Shown here piece after piece: positions 28,283 to 34,885 of a stretch of DNA of 37,728 nucleotides. The translations under genes and the position numbers were made by a program. This DNA comes from a virus. The stretch spans positions 1 to 37,728 of the IMG/VR virus record IMGVR_UViG_3300036985_001420, one strand, 5' to 3'. The notes beneath the pieces are model-generated. The model was given only the letters and a program-made list of their open reading frames with translations. It searched no databases and was not told the DNA's origin. Positions within the stretch are counted from its first letter, which is position 1. Each line of letters opens with the position of its first letter.

Positions 28283-28619
28283 AAATAACGCGCATATCGC
28301 GAAGCAACTTTTCAGCCTTCTCAATGTACTGCTCAGAGCCTGAGTGGTGCTTTTGAGAACAACCCACGCCTGCTACGCCGCTGGTCGTCTGGTATTCGTA
28401 GAACACCCGCAGGCGCTCTAGGCTTGAGTCGAGGTGGCTGTTCACCACTTCGTTCTCAGACATGTCGAGCAGGGCCTGCACATAAGCGCAAACCGCAGCC
28501 AGACATGTTACGTCTTTGCCGCGCAAAACCATGACTGGTTCGTCCTCGGAGATAAAATAACCCCCCCCCCTGTGATAAAGACGATCTGTGTCGCCGAACT
28601 GGTATTTGGGATCATTCAT
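28281..28619 (-). CDS. Small replication-block protein with a G10 tract, function unknown
   Basis: ATG 28619 overlaps the DNA polymerase stop as ATGA, so I prefer it to the longer frame. The 112-residue product has a short N-terminal part, then a G10 homopolymer on the coding strand (28570-28561) giving Arg-Gly-Gly-Gly-Tyr near residues 17-21. A C-terminal helical half follows (SENEVVNSHLDSSLERLRVF; IEKAEKLLRDMRV). The homopolymer could slip during replication or transcription and shift the frame early in the protein. No domain is recognised. Confidence 0.65.
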   Translation of the reverse strand: MNDPKYQFGDTDRLYHRGGGYFISEDEPVMVLRGKDVTCLAAVCAYVQALLDMSENEVVNSHLDSSLERLRVFYEYQTTSGVAGVGCSQKHHSGSEQYIEKAEKLLRDMRVI

Positions 28620-31414
28620 TTGCCGTACCTCGTCATAATTTGAACTTCTACATTTAAGGGGAGCCCTTCGGCCCACGCTGGTGGGGTGCACATTATGCGC
28701 TCCATTTCTTGCACGACTGCTTCGGGTTCCGCAGTTTCGATCACGATTTCGTCATGCACATGTGCGATCACGTTATCTAGATTTCGTAGGGAATGGCGGA
28801 GCAGGTCATTGGCAGCGGCTTGGGCTATATTTTCGCACGCCAAGCCTTTCCACAACCTTCCACGCGGCCACTCTTTTGCATCAGCGGCTGGTTTCCACGC
28901 AGCCTTGGCGTAGGTCACATTGCCCTCGGCGTCGAACTTGGCGAAAGGGTAATTCAGCACGCGGCCAGAAGGCAGCATGTACCACAAATGAACACCATCG
29001 TAGTAATAGGTTACGCGTCCGGCTTTAAACTCGCGGTTTTTGTTTCGCATGGCGCGAAGATATGCCGACTCAAGAGACTGCCAGTAAGTAGGAGCCCAAG
29101 GGTTAGCGCGCCGCCAAGCATCTACCATACGGCGGGCATCACTCTCAGGAAGCGAGACACCATAGACACGGCCCATAGCAGCAAAAGCACCAACGCCACC
29201 GGCAAAACCACAGTTATGAACAATTAAATGCCCTTGGCGGGTTAGCACAGTAAAGCTATTACGCGGGCCGCTGTTCAAGATGTCGAATACGGGCCTCAAG
29301 TTCGAGGATGTATCGCTGCATTTCTTGAACCGAGCGTTTGTTGTTGCAGTTTTCTTTCTTTGTAATAAACCGCAAGTTGCCAGGTTCATAGCCTTTGCTG
29401 ACGTCGATGCGGTCAAGTTCAAGGTGCGGCTTGTCCCAGCCATCCAGCTCCATAACGTACCGTAAAAAAGCGGCTTTGTCTGAACGCCAAGACATGTGTA
29501 CGTGAATGCCGCGCGCGCCATAGTTTGGATAGGCCCTGTCTTTTGGGTTATGACATCGGTTTTTGCACGCGGATAGCCGATTGAGTAGGCGCCTGCGGTG
29601 GTCATCATCTGGGCACGCATCGGCGTACTTGAAAAAATCTTTTCGCCAGAAACCAGACGCTTTTTTAGCGCAAACAGGGCATCGTGTGGAGGCGCCTTTG
29701 AGAAGGTTGTGTATATAGACCAAATGCGGTGCAGCTCCGCAATCGCATTGAACACGAACGAGCCGCATTCGACATGCACCTTGGTGCTTAACCTCGGTGC
29801 CCAATACGGTAAGTTGACCGAACCGAGCGCCAATGCTTGGGTCAGCAACTGTTTGTTTGAACCGAGTTGCTGCGCCTGCGCCCAAGTTGTTGGCGTTTTT
29901 ATCAAATGATCCGGCGTTACTTCCATGCCGCACACGTTGATAGTCTGCCGAAATCCTTTGCTGATTACGCCCTGATGTGTTACCCATGCTTGCCCATCCC
30001 AAAGAAGGTCTGTTGTTAGAACTTCCACTATAGCCTTGTATCCGTTATTAGTCAAGACTTGAGTATACGGGCCCAAACAAGCCAGCTCCTGAACCTTTCC
30101 GATCTGACGCTGGTCTTTGGTGACTCCATCCACACTGCATCCGAAAGTTGCTGCTGCGTTGACTTTGTAAACGTCGGCACCTGTTCGGAATAGATCCAGC
30201 TTGGCATCTCCAACGCCTGAAAGCCAAGGGTTGGCGCGGGCTTCGATGGCCGCCCAGTCGGCGACGACAAGGTACTTGCCTGCGGCGGGGACGATAGTGG
30301 GGCGGAGCATCCCCTTGAGGACGTCGGTGACACGCTCGCCATACTTGGGGACGATTGAATGCCCTCGAACCATCGCGTCTCGGACTGCTTGGGGCTCGGC
30401 TGCGCACTTTCTTGACATATTGTGCAATTGCGCCCCGTAGCTAGAAGCTCGCCCAGTAGCGCTTCCTCCAGCGAAGACAAAAGCCCCACGGACTCGTCCG
30501 TCTTCGACGTCCGCCAGATCCGCAAGGCGGCTGAATTTCGCAACCGAACTCGACCAGAGGTCATCGGCGCATTGAATAACCTCGGCAACAGCGGGCGGTA
30601 TCTCATCTGGGTTCTCCATCAGTAAAAGGTTAGCGCGGACGGTCTTGTCGATCGAGTATTTCTGCTTGCCGTCTTTAAAAACAACCATGAGCTTCTTGGC
30701 TTCCTCGCCGACGCGGTCGAGTACCCACTGCTTCATCTTGGGGGAGCGCACCGACACGATGGCGCCCTCAGTGACTTCCTGAACGATCTGTTGTATTTCT
30801 ACAACTTCATCTGACGCGTACTGGATGGCCGCCTTGCACAGGGGCACGTCGACCAGCACACCACGGTCGTTGATGCGCTCGTTGACGTGGTAGTCGCCCA
30901 GCTCCTCGGCTGACAACGGGCGCATAGCTTGGCTGATCGCACGCATGGCACGAACGTCCTGCTCGCAGTAATCAACCATCTCCTGCATGAGCTTCTCATC
31001 TTGACGAAAAGTGCCGTCAGCCTGCGGGACAGACAGCAGACGAATCAACTGAGCACCACGGTGGTCCTTACGCATAGACGAGCCACTAAAGCGGCCGACG
31101 TCTTCCAGCTTGCCAGGCGCGCAGTTGGCAAGGGCTTGGGTTGCAGTGCAGACGAACTGCTCTAACTTGAAGTTGACCTGCAAGACATACCAAAAGATCA
31201 GGCGCTCGAATGCAGCGTTGTGGGCGTAGATGGGGCCACCCCATTTGGCCACCTCATCGGGGAATGGCTGCGTAGGCAACCACGTCTGCACCTCACCATC
31301 GCCGAAAGCGTAGGACATGCACAGCACGTTGGTGCTGGCGTCCTGAGCGTAGTTGTACGCGCCGTGTTTGGGGAGGTCGCACTTGGACCGCGTTTCAAAA
31401 TCTAACCAAAGCAT
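28616..31414 (-). CDS. DNA polymerase, family A, interrupted by an intein
   Basis: The 932-residue precursor should splice to a 643-residue replicative polymerase. ATG 31414 has AAAGGAG 7 bases upstream; the TTG at 31432 lies in front of that site. The proofreading domain shows LDFETRS (Asp5, Glu7), YAHNAAFE and YCEQDVRAM. The polymerase domain shows motif A VVADWAAIEARA (Asp386), motif B split by the intein (R436, K440 before it, CGFAGGVGAF after it) and motif C HDE (887-889 of the precursor). Before splicing motif B is not continuous, so polymerase activity should depend on protein splicing. Neighbours are a Cas4-like nuclease, a putative ssDNA-binding protein and the primase-helicase. Confidence 0.93.
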   Translation of the reverse strand: MLWLDFETRSKCDLPKHGAYNYAQDASTNVLCMSYAFGDGEVQTWLPTQPFPDEVAKWGGPIYAHNAAFERLIFWYVLQVNFKLEQFVCTATQALANCAPGKLEDVGRFSGSSMRKDHRGAQLIRLLSVPQADGTFRQDEKLMQEMVDYCEQDVRAMRAISQAMRPLSAEELGDYHVNERINDRGVLVDVPLCKAAIQYASDEVVEIQQIVQEVTEGAIVSVRSPKMKQWVLDRVGEEAKKLMVVFKDGKQKYSIDKTVRANLLLMENPDEIPPAVAEVIQCADDLWSSSVAKFSRLADLADVEDGRVRGAFVFAGGSATGRASSYGAQLHNMSRKCAAEPQAVRDAMVRGHSIVPKYGERVTDVLKGMLRPTIVPAAGKYLVVADWAAIEARANPWLSGVGDAKLDLFRTGADVYKVNAAATFGCSVDGVTKDQRQIGKVQELACLGPYTQVLTNNGYKAIVEVLTTDLLWDGQAWVTHQGVISKGFRQTINVCGMEVTPDHLIKTPTTWAQAQQLGSNKQLLTQALALGSVNLPYWAPRLSTKVHVECGSFVFNAIAELHRIWSIYTTFSKAPPHDALFALKKRLVSGEKIFSSTPMRAQMMTTAGAYSIGYPRAKTDVITQKTGPIQTMARAAFTYTCLGVQTKPLFYGTLWSWMAGTSRTLNLTASTSAKAMNLATCGLLQRKKTATTNARFKKCSDTSSNLRPVFDILNSGPRNSFTVLTRQGHLIVHNCGFAGGVGAFAAMGRVYGVSLPESDARRMVDAWRRANPWAPTYWQSLESAYLRAMRNKNREFKAGRVTYYYDGVHLWYMLPSGRVLNYPFAKFDAEGNVTYAKAAWKPAADAKEWPRGRLWKGLACENIAQAAANDLLRHSLRNLDNVIAHVHDEIVIETAEPEAVVQEMERIMCTPPAWAEGLPLNVEVQIMTRYGK
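29213..30079 (-). other. Intein (289 aa) in polymerase motif B
   Basis: Translated in the polymerase frame, residues 446-734 of the precursor form an intein. Block A starts at Cys446 (CLGPYTQVLTNNGYKAIVEV). Block B has the T-x-x-H signature (GMEVTPDHLIKT). Block F is VFDILNSGPRNSFTV. Block G ends LIVHN and is followed by Cys735, the +1 nucleophile. All residues for standard class 1 splicing are present. Between the N-terminal splicing domain (about 90 residues) and block F lie about 165 residues that read like non-natural sequence in this frame, because that DNA encodes an HNH endonuclease in the -1 frame. The intein is thus a full-length insertion with its endonuclease in the wrong frame. 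Confidence 0.9.
29259..29987 (-). CDS. HNH homing endonuclease nested out of frame inside the intein
   Basis: In the -1 frame relative to the polymerase, the intein DNA encodes a complete HNH endonuclease of 242 residues from ATG 29987 (a TTG at 30002 is possible). The core is typical: IGARFGQLTVLG at about 52-63, then CDC...CPVC zinc-type cysteines (81, 83, 103, 106), then NRLSACKNRCHNPKDRAYPN, YGARGIHVHMSW, ELDRIDVSKGYEPGN and ENCNNKRS. This is a common free-standing/intron HNH family. The first 45 residues overlap the splicing domain and are unlike the family, so a later start is possible. A weak GGGA lies upstream of the ATG. The frame is closed by a stop at 30047-30045, and its own stop lies in block F, so it is confined to the intein. 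Confidence 0.85.
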   Translation of the reverse strand: MGNTSGRNQQRISADYQRVRHGSNAGSFDKNANNLGAGAATRFKQTVADPSIGARFGQLTVLGTEVKHQGACRMRLVRVQCDCGAAPHLVYIHNLLKGASTRCPVCAKKASGFWRKDFFKYADACPDDDHRRRLLNRLSACKNRCHNPKDRAYPNYGARGIHVHMSWRSDKAAFLRYVMELDGWDKPHLELDRIDVSKGYEPGNLRFITKKENCNNKRSVQEMQRYILELEARIRHLEQRPA

Positions 31415-31469
31415 ACTGTCGCTCCTTTCCAATGCCCACTGTCACCAATGGGCATCAGAAAAAAGCTAC

Positions 31470-32090
31470 TTAGGCTGCTGCACGACGGCGACGGCCTGCT
31501 GGCGCTTCTTCAGCTTCTACTTCGGGGGCTTCACCATCCATGCCAACCCATTCGACGATCTCAAACACTGGCGTGTAGATCTTGCCGTATGACTTGTGTG
31601 CGTAGTGGTCTTTCTTCAGACGCACGATCGGCACGGGCTTGGACTGGTCAGCCTCGACTTGGTTGGCGATGGCCACGGCCAGTGCCTGCACGCCGCGCTT
31701 GCCGCCCACCGAGGTGGAGGAGAAGCGCGCCTCCATGTCTTTGTCTTCACCAGACAAACACTTGAGCGACATGCCGACTTGGGTTTCCCAACCACGCTTG
31801 GCACCAGATGGTGCTGCGTCTGTCTCAGGCAATGGGTTTGACACGCTGGTCATCTTTTCGCCCAACACTTCGCCGTCACCCCAAGCGATGAAGCCGTGGA
31901 TGAAAGAGAAAGGGTTGACGGCCCAAGTGGTGTCTGGCTCAACTTCAGTCTGGTCAGCGCCGAACACCCAGTGGCCGGTCTTGTCCATTTTGATGATGAC
32001 CACGCCAGTAGGACCGGCTTCTGCTTCGAGAGCACGCAGAGCAGTGGAGAGGCTGGTAACGGGAGGGAGGTTTGCGAGTGCGAATGACAT
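31470..32090 (-). CDS. Putative single-stranded DNA-binding protein
   Basis: The 206-residue product lies between the Cas4-like nuclease and DNA polymerase genes, where phages usually encode their ssDNA-binding protein. It has mixed beta-type sequence with several aromatic residues (GHWVFGADQTEVEPDTTWAV, then NPFSFIHGFIAWGDGE). A Lys/Tyr-rich region follows (RLKKDHYAHKSYGKIYTPVF). The C-terminal tail is first acidic (EAPEVEAEEAP), as in many SSBs, but ends GRRRRAAA, which is odd for an SSB and could add DNA contact. I cannot see an OB-fold motif directly; the role is from context. GGAAAATA lies just before the ATG. Confidence 0.55.
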   Translation of the reverse strand: MSFALANLPPVTSLSTALRALEAEAGPTGVVIIKMDKTGHWVFGADQTEVEPDTTWAVNPFSFIHGFIAWGDGEVLGEKMTSVSNPLPETDAAPSGAKRGWETQVGMSLKCLSGEDKDMEARFSSTSVGGKRGVQALAVAIANQVEADQSKPVPIVRLKKDHYAHKSYGKIYTPVFEIVEWVGMDGEAPEVEAEEAPAGRRRRAAA

Positions 32091-32101
32091 ACTATTTTCC
32101 T

Positions 32102-33211
32102 TTACATGATTTTATTAAGAGCAGCAGTTAACTGTTGCCCGATGAGAACGACGGCAGGACGAGGATCATCCTCACTTGCCATCGTATTGCCCGAAGAGAT
32201 GGAAACGACCAGCTCCTTGGGTAATTCTTTGCCTTCTTTCTTGAGCAGCTTCTCAGCCTGCGCAGGCGAAATGATCTTTTGATCATACATCGGTAGACCT
32301 AAGAAGCGCGGGTCTTTTGCGACCACTGCTTCATCAACCCACTGACGTGTTGAGCGCTTAGCGACCAACTTGTAGCCTGGCACTTTACCACCTTTGTCGA
32401 GGACTTGGTGGGCAAGTGCACGAATATCTTTTAACCACAGCTCCAGCAAGTCAGCGCTCTGTAAGAGTTCCGACATCTGCACTGTATCCAGCTCGATCAG
32501 TTGCGACTTGAGCGCGCGGTCCACAGCACCGTTCATAACGGGGCAGATGGGCTTGGCGGTGCACCAGCGGCAGTGGTCGCCTGAGCTGAGCTTGGCGTTT
32601 GGTATCTGGGCCTGCTTAACTGCTGACACCAACTCAAGCTCAAACGCAGCGATGCGCTCTTTGGTCGTCACCCAGCGTTTGATCATGGGCGGCTGCACGA
32701 TGATCATCTCGATCTCGTCAGCACCGTCGAACGCCCACTTGACCGAGTCGGTGCGCATGGCCGCAGCTGCGTAGAACATCAGCTGTGGGTTTTCTATTGC
32801 ATCCACAACAACGCCATCGCCGAATTTCCAATCCAGAACGACGGCACGGTTTCCAACCCGACCAATAAGATCTGTGGACCCGAACACGCCAGGCAACAGA
32901 TCGCCAAAACCGACACGGGTTTCGACTTCGTACACCATATTTTGCGTAGGGTCCACTTCGTCAAGCGCACGAAGCGCGGGCGTGATTTTGTCATCGACCA
33001 GATCTTGCGTGAGTGTTTGGGATTCGTACTTAGCACCCAGCGTGATGGGCTTGCCTTCGAGGTGCTCAGCGATGACGTTGTGCAGCAGAGTGCCACGGTC
33101 AGCGTGTTCGCTTGAAGGTTGACGCGGCATCTTCTGAACCAAGGCCACAGAGCCTGGGCAGTTGATGACGCGCTTAGCGGTTGAACCGCCGACGATGTTT
33201 GAGTGAAGCAT
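32102..33211 (-). CDS. Cas4/RecB-like PD-(D/E)XK exonuclease with Fe-S cysteines (DUF2800-type)
   Basis: I choose ATG 33211 with AAAGGA 5 bases upstream; the longer frame would start beyond the promoter. The 369-residue product has the Cas4/AddB plan: a first Cys at 18 (INCPGS), GTLLHNVIAEH with His44, GSTDLIG with Asp114, VVLDWKFGD with Asp127 and Lys129, NPQLMFYA, and C-x2-C-x5-C at 214, 217 and 223. The four cysteines would hold a [4Fe-4S] cluster. It should act as an exonuclease in replication or recombination. First gene of the leftward replication operon. A Lys-rich C-terminal helix follows at about 320-345. Confidence 0.82.
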   Translation of the reverse strand: MLHSNIVGGSTAKRVINCPGSVALVQKMPRQPSSEHADRGTLLHNVIAEHLEGKPITLGAKYESQTLTQDLVDDKITPALRALDEVDPTQNMVYEVETRVGFGDLLPGVFGSTDLIGRVGNRAVVLDWKFGDGVVVDAIENPQLMFYAAAAMRTDSVKWAFDGADEIEMIIVQPPMIKRWVTTKERIAAFELELVSAVKQAQIPNAKLSSGDHCRWCTAKPICPVMNGAVDRALKSQLIELDTVQMSELLQSADLLELWLKDIRALAHQVLDKGGKVPGYKLVAKRSTRQWVDEAVVAKDPRFLGLPMYDQKIISPAQAEKLLKKEGKELPKELVVSISSGNTMASEDDPRPAVVLIGQQLTAALNKIM

Positions 33212-33237
33212 TACTGTCCTTTCGTGTTTGAAGTTGC

Positions 33238-33264
33238 AGTGTACAGCAAAATAAATGTTGTCAA
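33238..33264 (-). promoter_or_regulatory. Leftward promoter of the replication operon
   Basis: On the minus strand TTGACA (33264-33259) and TACACT (33243-33238) are spaced by 15 bases, a perfect -35 with a fair -10. Transcription would start near 33231 and run into the Cas4-like gene at 33211. Its -35 shares bases with the rightward promoter. Confidence 0.55.
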
Positions 33265-33285
33265 GAACTTTTTTCATGTTATATT
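33258..33285 (+). promoter_or_regulatory. Rightward promoter of the VRR-NUC operon
   Basis: TTGTCA (33258-33263), a 16-base spacer and TATATT (33280-33285) with an extended -10 TG two bases before it. The predicted start is at or next to the ATG at 33292, which has no Shine-Dalgarno, so a leaderless message is likely. Confidence 0.55.
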
Positions 33286-33291
33286 TCAGCC

Positions 33292-33579
33292 ATGAGAGAA
33301 AAAGAAATCGAAAAACACTTCTGCTGGGCAGTCGAACGGCTTGGCGGCAGGACGTACAAGTTCACCAGCCCAGGGCGCAAGGGTGTAGCTGACCGAATCG
33401 CATGTTTGCCTGACGGCTCGACGTGGTTCGTGGAGCTTAAGACCAAAGGTGGCCGACTCAGCAAATTACAAGAGCTATTTGCGTCTGAAGTGCAGGCGCT
33501 CAATCAGAAATACGCATGTTTATGGACAAAGGAACAAGTTGATGCTTTCGCTACGTCCGTACCAAAATATTGCCGCTGA
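33292..33579 (+). CDS. VRR-NUC domain nuclease
   Basis: The 95-residue product is a minimal VRR-NUC nuclease of the PD-(D/E)XK class: GVADRIA with Asp34, WFVELKTKGGRLSKLQ with Glu48, Lys50 and Gln60. Such single-domain phage versions are held to be structure-specific, possibly Holliday-junction-type, nucleases. It is followed by an overlapping SNF2-type helicase gene, a pairing I know from other phages, so the two may work together on branched replication DNA. No ribosome site precedes the ATG. Confidence 0.88.
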   Translation: MREKEIEKHFCWAVERLGGRTYKFTSPGRKGVADRIACLPDGSTWFVELKTKGGRLSKLQELFASEVQALNQKYACLWTKEQVDAFATSVPKYCR

Positions 33580-34885
33580 TTTCTTGTACGAGCACGACCG
33601 CGCCATGATCTTGGCGCCAGTCGGTGCTGGCAAGACAGCCATCACGCTGACCGCGATGGACGCCATGATCAAGGACGGCCACGTCAAGCGTTGGCTGGTT
33701 ATCGCGCCTAAGCGCGTGTGCACCGACGTGTGGCCAGTCGAGATGCCCAAGTGGAGCAAGAACCTGAAGATAGCCGTTGCGATCGGCACACCTAAGCAGC
33801 GCAACGCCGTGTTCAGCAGCGACGCCAACGTGATCGTCATCAACTACGACAACCTGCAATGGTTGGCCGGCATCTGTAACGTCATGGGCAAAGGCTTGCC
33901 AGTCGACGGGCTGGTGTTCGACGAGCTGACCAAGCTGAAGAACCCATCAGGCGCACGCTTCAAAGCGTTTGAAAAAATCATCAAAGCCGTGCCAGTGCGC
34001 TGGGGCCTGACTGGTTCGTTCACATCGAACGGCCTCGAGGACGTCTTCGGCCAGTGCAAGATCGTCGACGAGGCGCTGTTGGGCCGCAGCAAGGGCGCGT
34101 TCATGCAGCAGTACTTTGTGCTGGTCAACAAAGACTTCGGCGAGTGGGCGCCGCGCGCCTCATCTCTGCCGCTGATCATGGACCGCATCAAGCCGGCCAC
34201 CTTCGTACTGGACGCTGGCGAATACGCCGACAAGCTGCCGCCGTGTCACCACGTCGAGATGCGTTGTAAGTTCCCTGACAGGGAACCATACGAGAAGATG
34301 AAGTCCGACTTTGTAGCGTTAGGCGTTACAGCCCTGAACGCCGCAGTCGTGACTGGCAAGCTGCAACAGATGGCCAGCGGTTTCGTGTACGACACGCAGA
34401 CGACCGCCAGTGAGGTGTACGGCAAGTTCGTCACCGTGCAAACGCCGGTCTGGTTCAGCAGCCACAAATTCGATTTACTTGACGACTTACTAGAGGAAAA
34501 CCAACACGCCAATACGATCATTGCTTACAACTACAAAGAGGAGCTGGCTGAGCTTAAGCGACGCTACAAGCACGCAGTCACCCTTGACGACGACCGTGCC
34601 ATTGAGCGCTGGAACAAAGGTGAAGTCGAGCTTCTCTTGGTCCATCCCAAGTCAGCCGGCCACGGGCTCAACTTGCAGCACGGCGGCAGCCGCATCGTCT
34701 TCGTGTCCCTGCCCTGGTCGCTCGAACTGTTCGAACAGACAGTCGGGCGGCTGCATCGTAGCGGCCAGCGGCATGACGTGTGGGTCTACGTACTGATGAC
34801 TGAGAAGTCAGTGGACGAGAAAATCTGGGCAGCGTTGCACGACAAGCGCGCTATTTCTGAAATCGCAATGGAGGAATTGAAATGA
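33542..34885 (+). CDS. SNF2-type (SF2) DNA helicase/translocase
   Basis: I choose ATG 33542, which lies 38 bases inside the VRR-NUC gene with AAGGA about 9 bases upstream; it gives MLSLRPYQNIAADFL, the usual start of the Q-motif region. The 447-residue product has Walker A PVGAGKT (26-32), motif II DELT (127-130, in place of DEAH), a TGS motif (RWGLTGSFTSNG) and motif VI (EQTVGRLHRSGQ). It lacks long SNF2 insertions. With the VRR-NUC partner it may remodel forks or branched DNA. Confidence 0.88.
   Translation: MLSLRPYQNIAADFLYEHDRAMILAPVGAGKTAITLTAMDAMIKDGHVKRWLVIAPKRVCTDVWPVEMPKWSKNLKIAVAIGTPKQRNAVFSSDANVIVINYDNLQWLAGICNVMGKGLPVDGLVFDELTKLKNPSGARFKAFEKIIKAVPVRWGLTGSFTSNGLEDVFGQCKIVDEALLGRSKGAFMQQYFVLVNKDFGEWAPRASSLPLIMDRIKPATFVLDAGEYADKLPPCHHVEMRCKFPDREPYEKMKSDFVALGVTALNAAVVTGKLQQMASGFVYDTQTTASEVYGKFVTVQTPVWFSSHKFDLLDDLLEENQHANTIIAYNYKEELAELKRRYKHAVTLDDDRAIERWNKGEVELLLVHPKSAGHGLNLQHGGSRIVFVSLPWSLELFEQTVGRLHRSGQRHDVWVYVLMTEKSVDEKIWAALHDKRAISEIAMEELK

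Follow-up and report, generated by a model that had tools for sequence, protein, structure and literature searches.

A class-1-type intein in a phage DNA polymerase gene with a predicted HNH homing endonuclease gene in an overlapping reading frame

Inteins that encode a homing endonuclease, such as those of the PI-SceI type (LAGLIDADG; some HNH), carry the endonuclease within the same protein. In the split-intein 'fractured genes' that Dassa et al. reportedly described in 2009, a free-standing endonuclease is said to lie between the intein halves. Another arrangement is found in phage methylases, where the ShiLan domain and the Pacc40 insertion contain an out-of-frame 'hidden HNH endonuclease' in an element that has no intein or intron and whose insert is thought to remain in the methylase (Arsenault, Gosselin and Gogarten 2025, PMC11855218). 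An internal start (GTG) has also been proposed for the ShiLan endonuclease. A literature search returned this paper as the sole directly relevant one; a 2025 preprint on actinobacteriophage inteins lay outside the search. By its title ('Actinobacteriophage Inteins ... Non-Canonical Architecture'), that preprint, reportedly by Gosselin, Arsenault and Gogarten, may overlap with the observations below; it is said to concern actinobacteriophages, unlike most of the phages sampled here.

The segment analyzed here lies in a DNA polymerase gene on a 37,728-nucleotide stretch of viral DNA (IMG/VR record IMGVR_UViG_3300036985_001420, positions 1 to 37,728), which we call the window. We conclude from comparative sequence analysis that it is very probably a class-1-type intein in which an overlapping frame hosts the gene of an HNH homing endonuclease, with predicted splicing, internal initiation, cleavage and site specificity. 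The segment shares blocks A, B, F and G, the HINT fold, a homing-type distribution and the position of the endonuclease DNA between blocks B and F with canonical inteins, but here the endonuclease is a separate overlapping gene, and an in-frame endonuclease was found at 0 of 194 loci and 0 of 65 in a second scan. The fractured genes likewise reportedly have the endonuclease and intein halves at one locus and the endonuclease expressed alone; there, however, both the intein and its host gene are in separate pieces, whereas here the intein frame is continuous and the endonuclease overlaps it. Compared by layout, ShiLan and this segment have in common an HNH frame that differs from that of the host gene, a stop-free host frame, a sporadic distribution and a phage host. 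Unlike in ShiLan, the host frame here has a complete splicing domain, located in an essential-looking polymerase motif and present across many lineages. Among the features tested, the segment differs from known inteins only in lacking an in-frame endonuclease; an out-of-frame HNH, without an intein, is already published (PMC11855218). A preliminary description made from the window alone knew of no named class for this layout; the layout proved to be widespread. Two GenBank records, of APSE-1 (P45/P46) and Sodalis phage SO-1 (gp38/gp39), have the same architecture and already list nested ORFs, but do not recognize in the nested ORF a homing endonuclease that is out of frame with a surrounding intein. 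Annotation in the Ent1 record is limited to an intein 'encoding splicing domains'.

Table 1. Features of the polymerase locus, in window coordinates.
Feature	Position	Strand	Details
DNA polymerase (family A) ORF with intein	28616..31432	-	938 aa; PF00476 E 5e-16, phrog_17 E 1.5e-85
Exteins of polymerase ORF	30080-31432 and 28616-29212	-	
Intein, polymerase frame	29213..30079	-	289 aa; Cys1 ... His288-Asn289 / Cys+1
N-terminal splicing half, intein residues 1-98	29786..30079	-	block A WDGQAWV, block B TPDH; pLDDT about 95
Spacer, intein residues 99-257	29309..29785	-	open, unconserved, predicted disordered; pLDDT < 50; DNA shared with most of HNH
C-terminal splicing half, intein residues 258-289	29213..29308	-	blocks F and G; pLDDT about 95
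Proposed internal start ATG	29985..29987	-	formed by block A Ala-Trp codons GCA TGG
HNH endonuclease ORF	29259..29987	-	242 aa, +2 (-1) frame relative to intein; phrog_374 HNH E 3.5e-33, with further HNH family matches
Conserved folded HNH core, HNH residues 50-221	29325..29840	-	

The intein boundaries given in the preliminary description were right (Table 1). The intein corresponds to polymerase residues 452-740, inserted between RQIGKVQELA and CGFAGG. It interrupts a GK-x-x-E-L-A-C-G-F stretch that we take to be polymerase motif B, so the polymerase should need splicing. As the preliminary description had stated, splicing blocks A, B, F and G with their key residues are all in the polymerase frame, where blocks F and G read RPVFDILNSGPRNSFTVL...GHLIVHN, and this frame runs through the HNH segment with 0 stops. 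T55 and H58 of the block B TxxH are invariant in 37 sequences. In an AlphaFold2 model made with 37 homologues, residues 99-257 have almost no predicted secondary structure. The ordered remainder matched the Mtu RecA intein (3ifj) with Z 14.6 over 113 residues at 2.3 A, and the top rows of the structure comparison were inteins, with other HINT domains lower. The splicing residues are conserved in the 99 non-redundant relatives that have the +2 layout: all 99 have Cys1, 97 have the His next to the end, 98 end in Asn and 98 have Cys/Ser at +1. A sequence search of solved structures with the intein gave weak intein matches (NEQ068, E 0.002), and Pfam and NCBIfam searches matched no intein or HNH family, Pfam being blind to both frames. 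By every feature tested, namely Cys1, terminal His-Asn, Cys+1, block B TxxH, a modelled HINT fold and empty homologues at the same site, the segment is a class-1-type intein, and it would be expected to splice. A match to the phrog_93 family ('endonuclease') in the polymerase frame begins in the intein and extends into the C-extein, and the family perhaps contains such inteins. The neighboring ORFs, at 31470-34885, resemble a DUF2800/PD-(D/E)XK nuclease and an SNF2-type helicase, in jerseyvirus-like surroundings.

The HNH ORF was recovered in the -1 frame exactly where the preliminary description had placed it. It runs from an ATG at 29987 to a stop ending at 29259, and its frame is open upstream to 30044. 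HNH homologues at the matching position are 42-79% identical, and 23 residues are invariant across 42 HNHs. The family motif comprises invariant D192-R193, N204 and N213 and a nearly invariant N216. It lacks the canonical first HNH histidine, which is replaced by Asp-Arg in the window (LELDRID; family pattern LxxDR), and this makes catalysis uncertain. An AlphaFold2 model (mean pLDDT 80) has residues 1-28 disordered and the remainder mostly ordered. Its best solved match was an HNH enzyme, PacI, although the match was weak (Z 5.8 over 86 residues), and Foldseek with the model gave no HNH enzyme at E<=0.001. A sequence search of solved structures with the HNH likewise gave weak matches only, mostly coiled coils on its C-terminal helix. 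We conclude that the HNH is real as a gene, whose product would be translated as a separate protein and may cleave DNA.

In a tblastn search of phage records, 180 isolates matched, most of them Salmonella jerseyviruses, and in 166 of these the match covered >=80% of the intein frame; an HNH was at the corresponding place in those records that were compared. For a larger locus set, alignments of the HNH and of the intein were scanned against IMG/VR and GTDB contigs, and phage records were added; a scan with the window's intein alone gave zero matches, and alignments were needed. At the resulting 194 intein-HNH loci, the HNH was at +2 in 173, at +1 in 21 and in frame in 0. Certain contigs contributed overlapping pieces and so more than one of these loci; the non-redundant set contains 113 (99 at +2 and 14 at +1). 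The intein frame was interrupted at none of the 194 loci; stops in this frame in relatives would have counted against the preliminary description. Because the queries of the first scan were taken from out-of-frame examples, the scan was repeated with the intein N-domain alone. This second scan, which partly re-finds contigs of the first, gave 72 inteins: 47 with an HNH at +2, 18 at +1, 0 in frame, and 7 mini-inteins without an HNH. By these comparisons, the predicted out-of-frame HNH in an intein is a widespread class with two offsets in more than 100 diverse phage lineages, and is not confined to the window's phage.

The +2 inteins occupy three nearby positions within one polymerase motif. 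In polymerases with two inteins, the +2 intein is in motif B and the +1 intein is at a second site, such as between GGK and CEN. Eight polymerase loci have two inteins that each hide an HNH of a different offset (L032, L034, L035, L115, L120, L121, L140 and L148). A +1 HNH from Caulobacter matched a free-standing HNH of Serratia phage PCH45 at 42%, compared to about 30% for jerseyvirus +2 HNHs. This closer relationship to free-standing phage HNHs suggests separate acquisitions. In a jerseyvirus-like record (L074:3700-4750; IMG 638275545), indels that are most likely sequencing errors break both frames.

Substitution rates per codon position were compared in 94 pairs of related +2 inteins. In the first ~60 and last 30 intein codons, intein position 3 was fastest (0.23-0.27 vs 0.07-0.12), whereas in codons about 70-258 the fastest was intein position 2, the third position of the HNH codons (0.37 vs 0.09 and 0.14). 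This change implies that the intein is the selected frame until shortly past block B, where the HNH takes over, and that the intein frame resumes at block F. HNH third positions in the central stretch changed ~4x faster than second positions, and the central amino acids of the intein are consequently unconserved. By these rates, the middle of the intein frame merely avoids stops, and the protein sequence there is not conserved. Selection to keep both frames open, as proposed in the preliminary description, was borne out, with the refinement that the central intein frame is just kept open.

Stop avoidance was measured by recoding each HNH core synonymously with the codon usage of its own extein. 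Recoding is expected to place a mean of 4.9 stops per copy in the intein frame of the +2 family and 5.4 in that of the +1 family, compared to 0 observed in 113 copies; the third frame has an average of 10.7 stops. Since the lineages are related, products of these stop-free probabilities are not to be read literally. For the window, the intein frame stayed open in 1 in 1000 synonymous HNH recodings with polymerase codon usage, and in 0 of 1000 when the HNH's own codons were permuted instead. The (61/64)^165 estimate of the preliminary description is of the same order as the recoding result, but is a cruder figure.

The preliminary description had also proposed that one segment makes a splicing precursor and, by internal initiation, an HNH enzyme, and the comparative data point the same way. 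The +2 codon on the second block A tryptophan is ATG in 67 of the 99 lineages, GTG in 26, TTG in 5 and CTG in 0; given codon usage and the amino acid before it, an A at that codon would be expected in 35.3 +/- 4.5, with lineages that share ancestry counted as separate. The ATG excess (61 vs 26.9 expected) was gone in 21 lineages with an ATG two codons downstream (6 vs 8.4), and 16 of these 21 have GGAGG, GAGGA or GGGAG at a suitable distance before that downstream ATG. By contrast, the +1 family has no ATG excess at the matching codon (5 vs 4.0). The selection of this codon as ATG suggests internal initiation. Moreover, in 25 lineages the +2 frame is closed by a stop one or two codons before the proposed start. 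Together, the start-codon bias and these nearby stops favor internal initiation as the probable route over frameshifting. Compared to recoded sequences, anti-Shine-Dalgarno pairing across lineages was slightly improved (p 3.5e-4); a clear Shine-Dalgarno is missing at the window's own start (duplex -6.9 vs -6.7 on recoding). A promoter-like match at 30055-30027 was within chance expectation. There is also an excess of A at the base before the first block A tryptophan (W27), with 60 of 99 lineages compared to 16.5 expected, though not in the +1 family. This excess persists where a stop separates W27 from the proposed start, and where W27 therefore cannot be the start; it perhaps reflects an unstructured initiation region or tandem starts.

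If ribosomes instead shifted by -1 within the N-terminal half of the intein, the HNH would be made as an intein-N/HNH fusion. Such a shift equals the HNH offset, and many lineages have some open +2 codons ahead of the HNH start. However, just 12 of 99 lineages have an in-phase slippery heptamer, the positions vary, and the window has none; the upstream +2 stops exclude shifts upstream of the stop in the lineages that have them; the proposed HNH start codon is under selection; and the +1 family would need the opposite shift. Programmed -1 frameshifting, for which a conserved slippery site was absent among the 99 lineages, was rejected, and we consider frameshifting in general unlikely. The HNH frame might instead be decaying or untranslated, with the segment persisting as an intein with a tolerated insertion, as the existence of mini-inteins without an HNH (7/72) and of an HNH remnant in one of them (L310) would allow. 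Against this reading stand the substitution pattern across the center, the invariant HNH residues, the selected start codon and the movement of the element between divergent polymerases, and a majority of close relatives with HNH-frame stops or relaxed substitution was not seen in the sampled set; we judge it quite improbable.

GenBank describes SO-1 gp38/gp39 as containing a type I self-splicing intron (L005, GQ502199), which would be consistent with an RNA element (group I intron) carrying an ORF and an incidental intein-like frame. This sequence is, however, an intein with an out-of-frame HNH. The window stretch gave no Rfam match at E<=1, and no intron was found in six relatives, SO-1 among them, at gathering scores, on which basis a group I intron was rejected. 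The intein frame is also stop-free in all copies, with conserved splicing residues and a predicted intein fold, so that an RNA element has a very low probability. Displacement of an in-frame HNH by sequencing or assembly indels, which the preliminary description had wished to exclude as paired errors, has one broken record in its favor (L074). Since isolates and metagenomes sequenced independently have the identical HNH offset, the artefact was rejected and its probability is negligible.

The intein with an overlapping HNH gene also appears to be mobile. The 80 nearest polymerases retrieved with joined exteins (76-89% identical) have an empty site in 80/80, with the sequence RQIGKVQELACGFAG in those listed, although joined-extein retrieval favors uninterrupted genes and 80/80 thus gives no frequency. 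Two loci (L011 and L103) are 77% identical in the HNH and 61% in the intein N-half, but only 32% in the polymerase; conversely, L088 and L089 have exteins that are 95% identical, yet their HNHs are 47% identical. We conclude from the empty sites and from intein relationships that conflict with extein relationships that the element is mobile and has undergone horizontal transfer, as judged by sequence. In the mini-intein L310 (L310:2143-2574), the intein frame is open, and the +2 frame consists of two HNH ends with the catalytic middle deleted, a decay state that the homing cycle predicts.

In the cycle that we propose, translation from the polymerase start would yield a precursor protein in which a splicing domain forms from the two intein ends, with some 160 disordered residues linking them. 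The intein would then excise itself and the exteins join, restoring polymerase motif B. Ribosomes starting at the ATG or GTG nested in block A would produce a free HNH enzyme, which may cut polymerase alleles that lack the intein close to the insertion site; the segment would then move when the break is repaired from the copy that has it. More generally, we think it rather likely that inteins have split splicing and homing into two overlapping genes, that this arrangement is widespread and arose two or more times (at +2 and at +1, each from a different lineage of free-standing HNHs), and that the offset is kept since the free endonuclease gets its own start inside the splicing domain.

Here, one DNA stretch serves two coding demands, and the well-sampled relatives allow measuring how each is satisfied. 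The two offsets, the free-standing HNH relatives and the decayed mini-inteins are snapshots of a cycle that bear on how homing endonucleases colonize mini-inteins. As Pfam sees neither frame, the endonuclease is missed in annotation, implying that counts of HNH homing elements in phage polymerases are too low. Related inteins are present in about 180 isolate genomes, mostly Salmonella jerseyviruses, which offer easy bench systems. HNH matches also occur under dUTPase, ERF protein or DNA polymerase annotations in four phage records (PP767789 32507-32995, OP596615 35736-35945, MH358458 35614-36147 and MT104472 10076-10435), which are possible further hidden HNH insertions.
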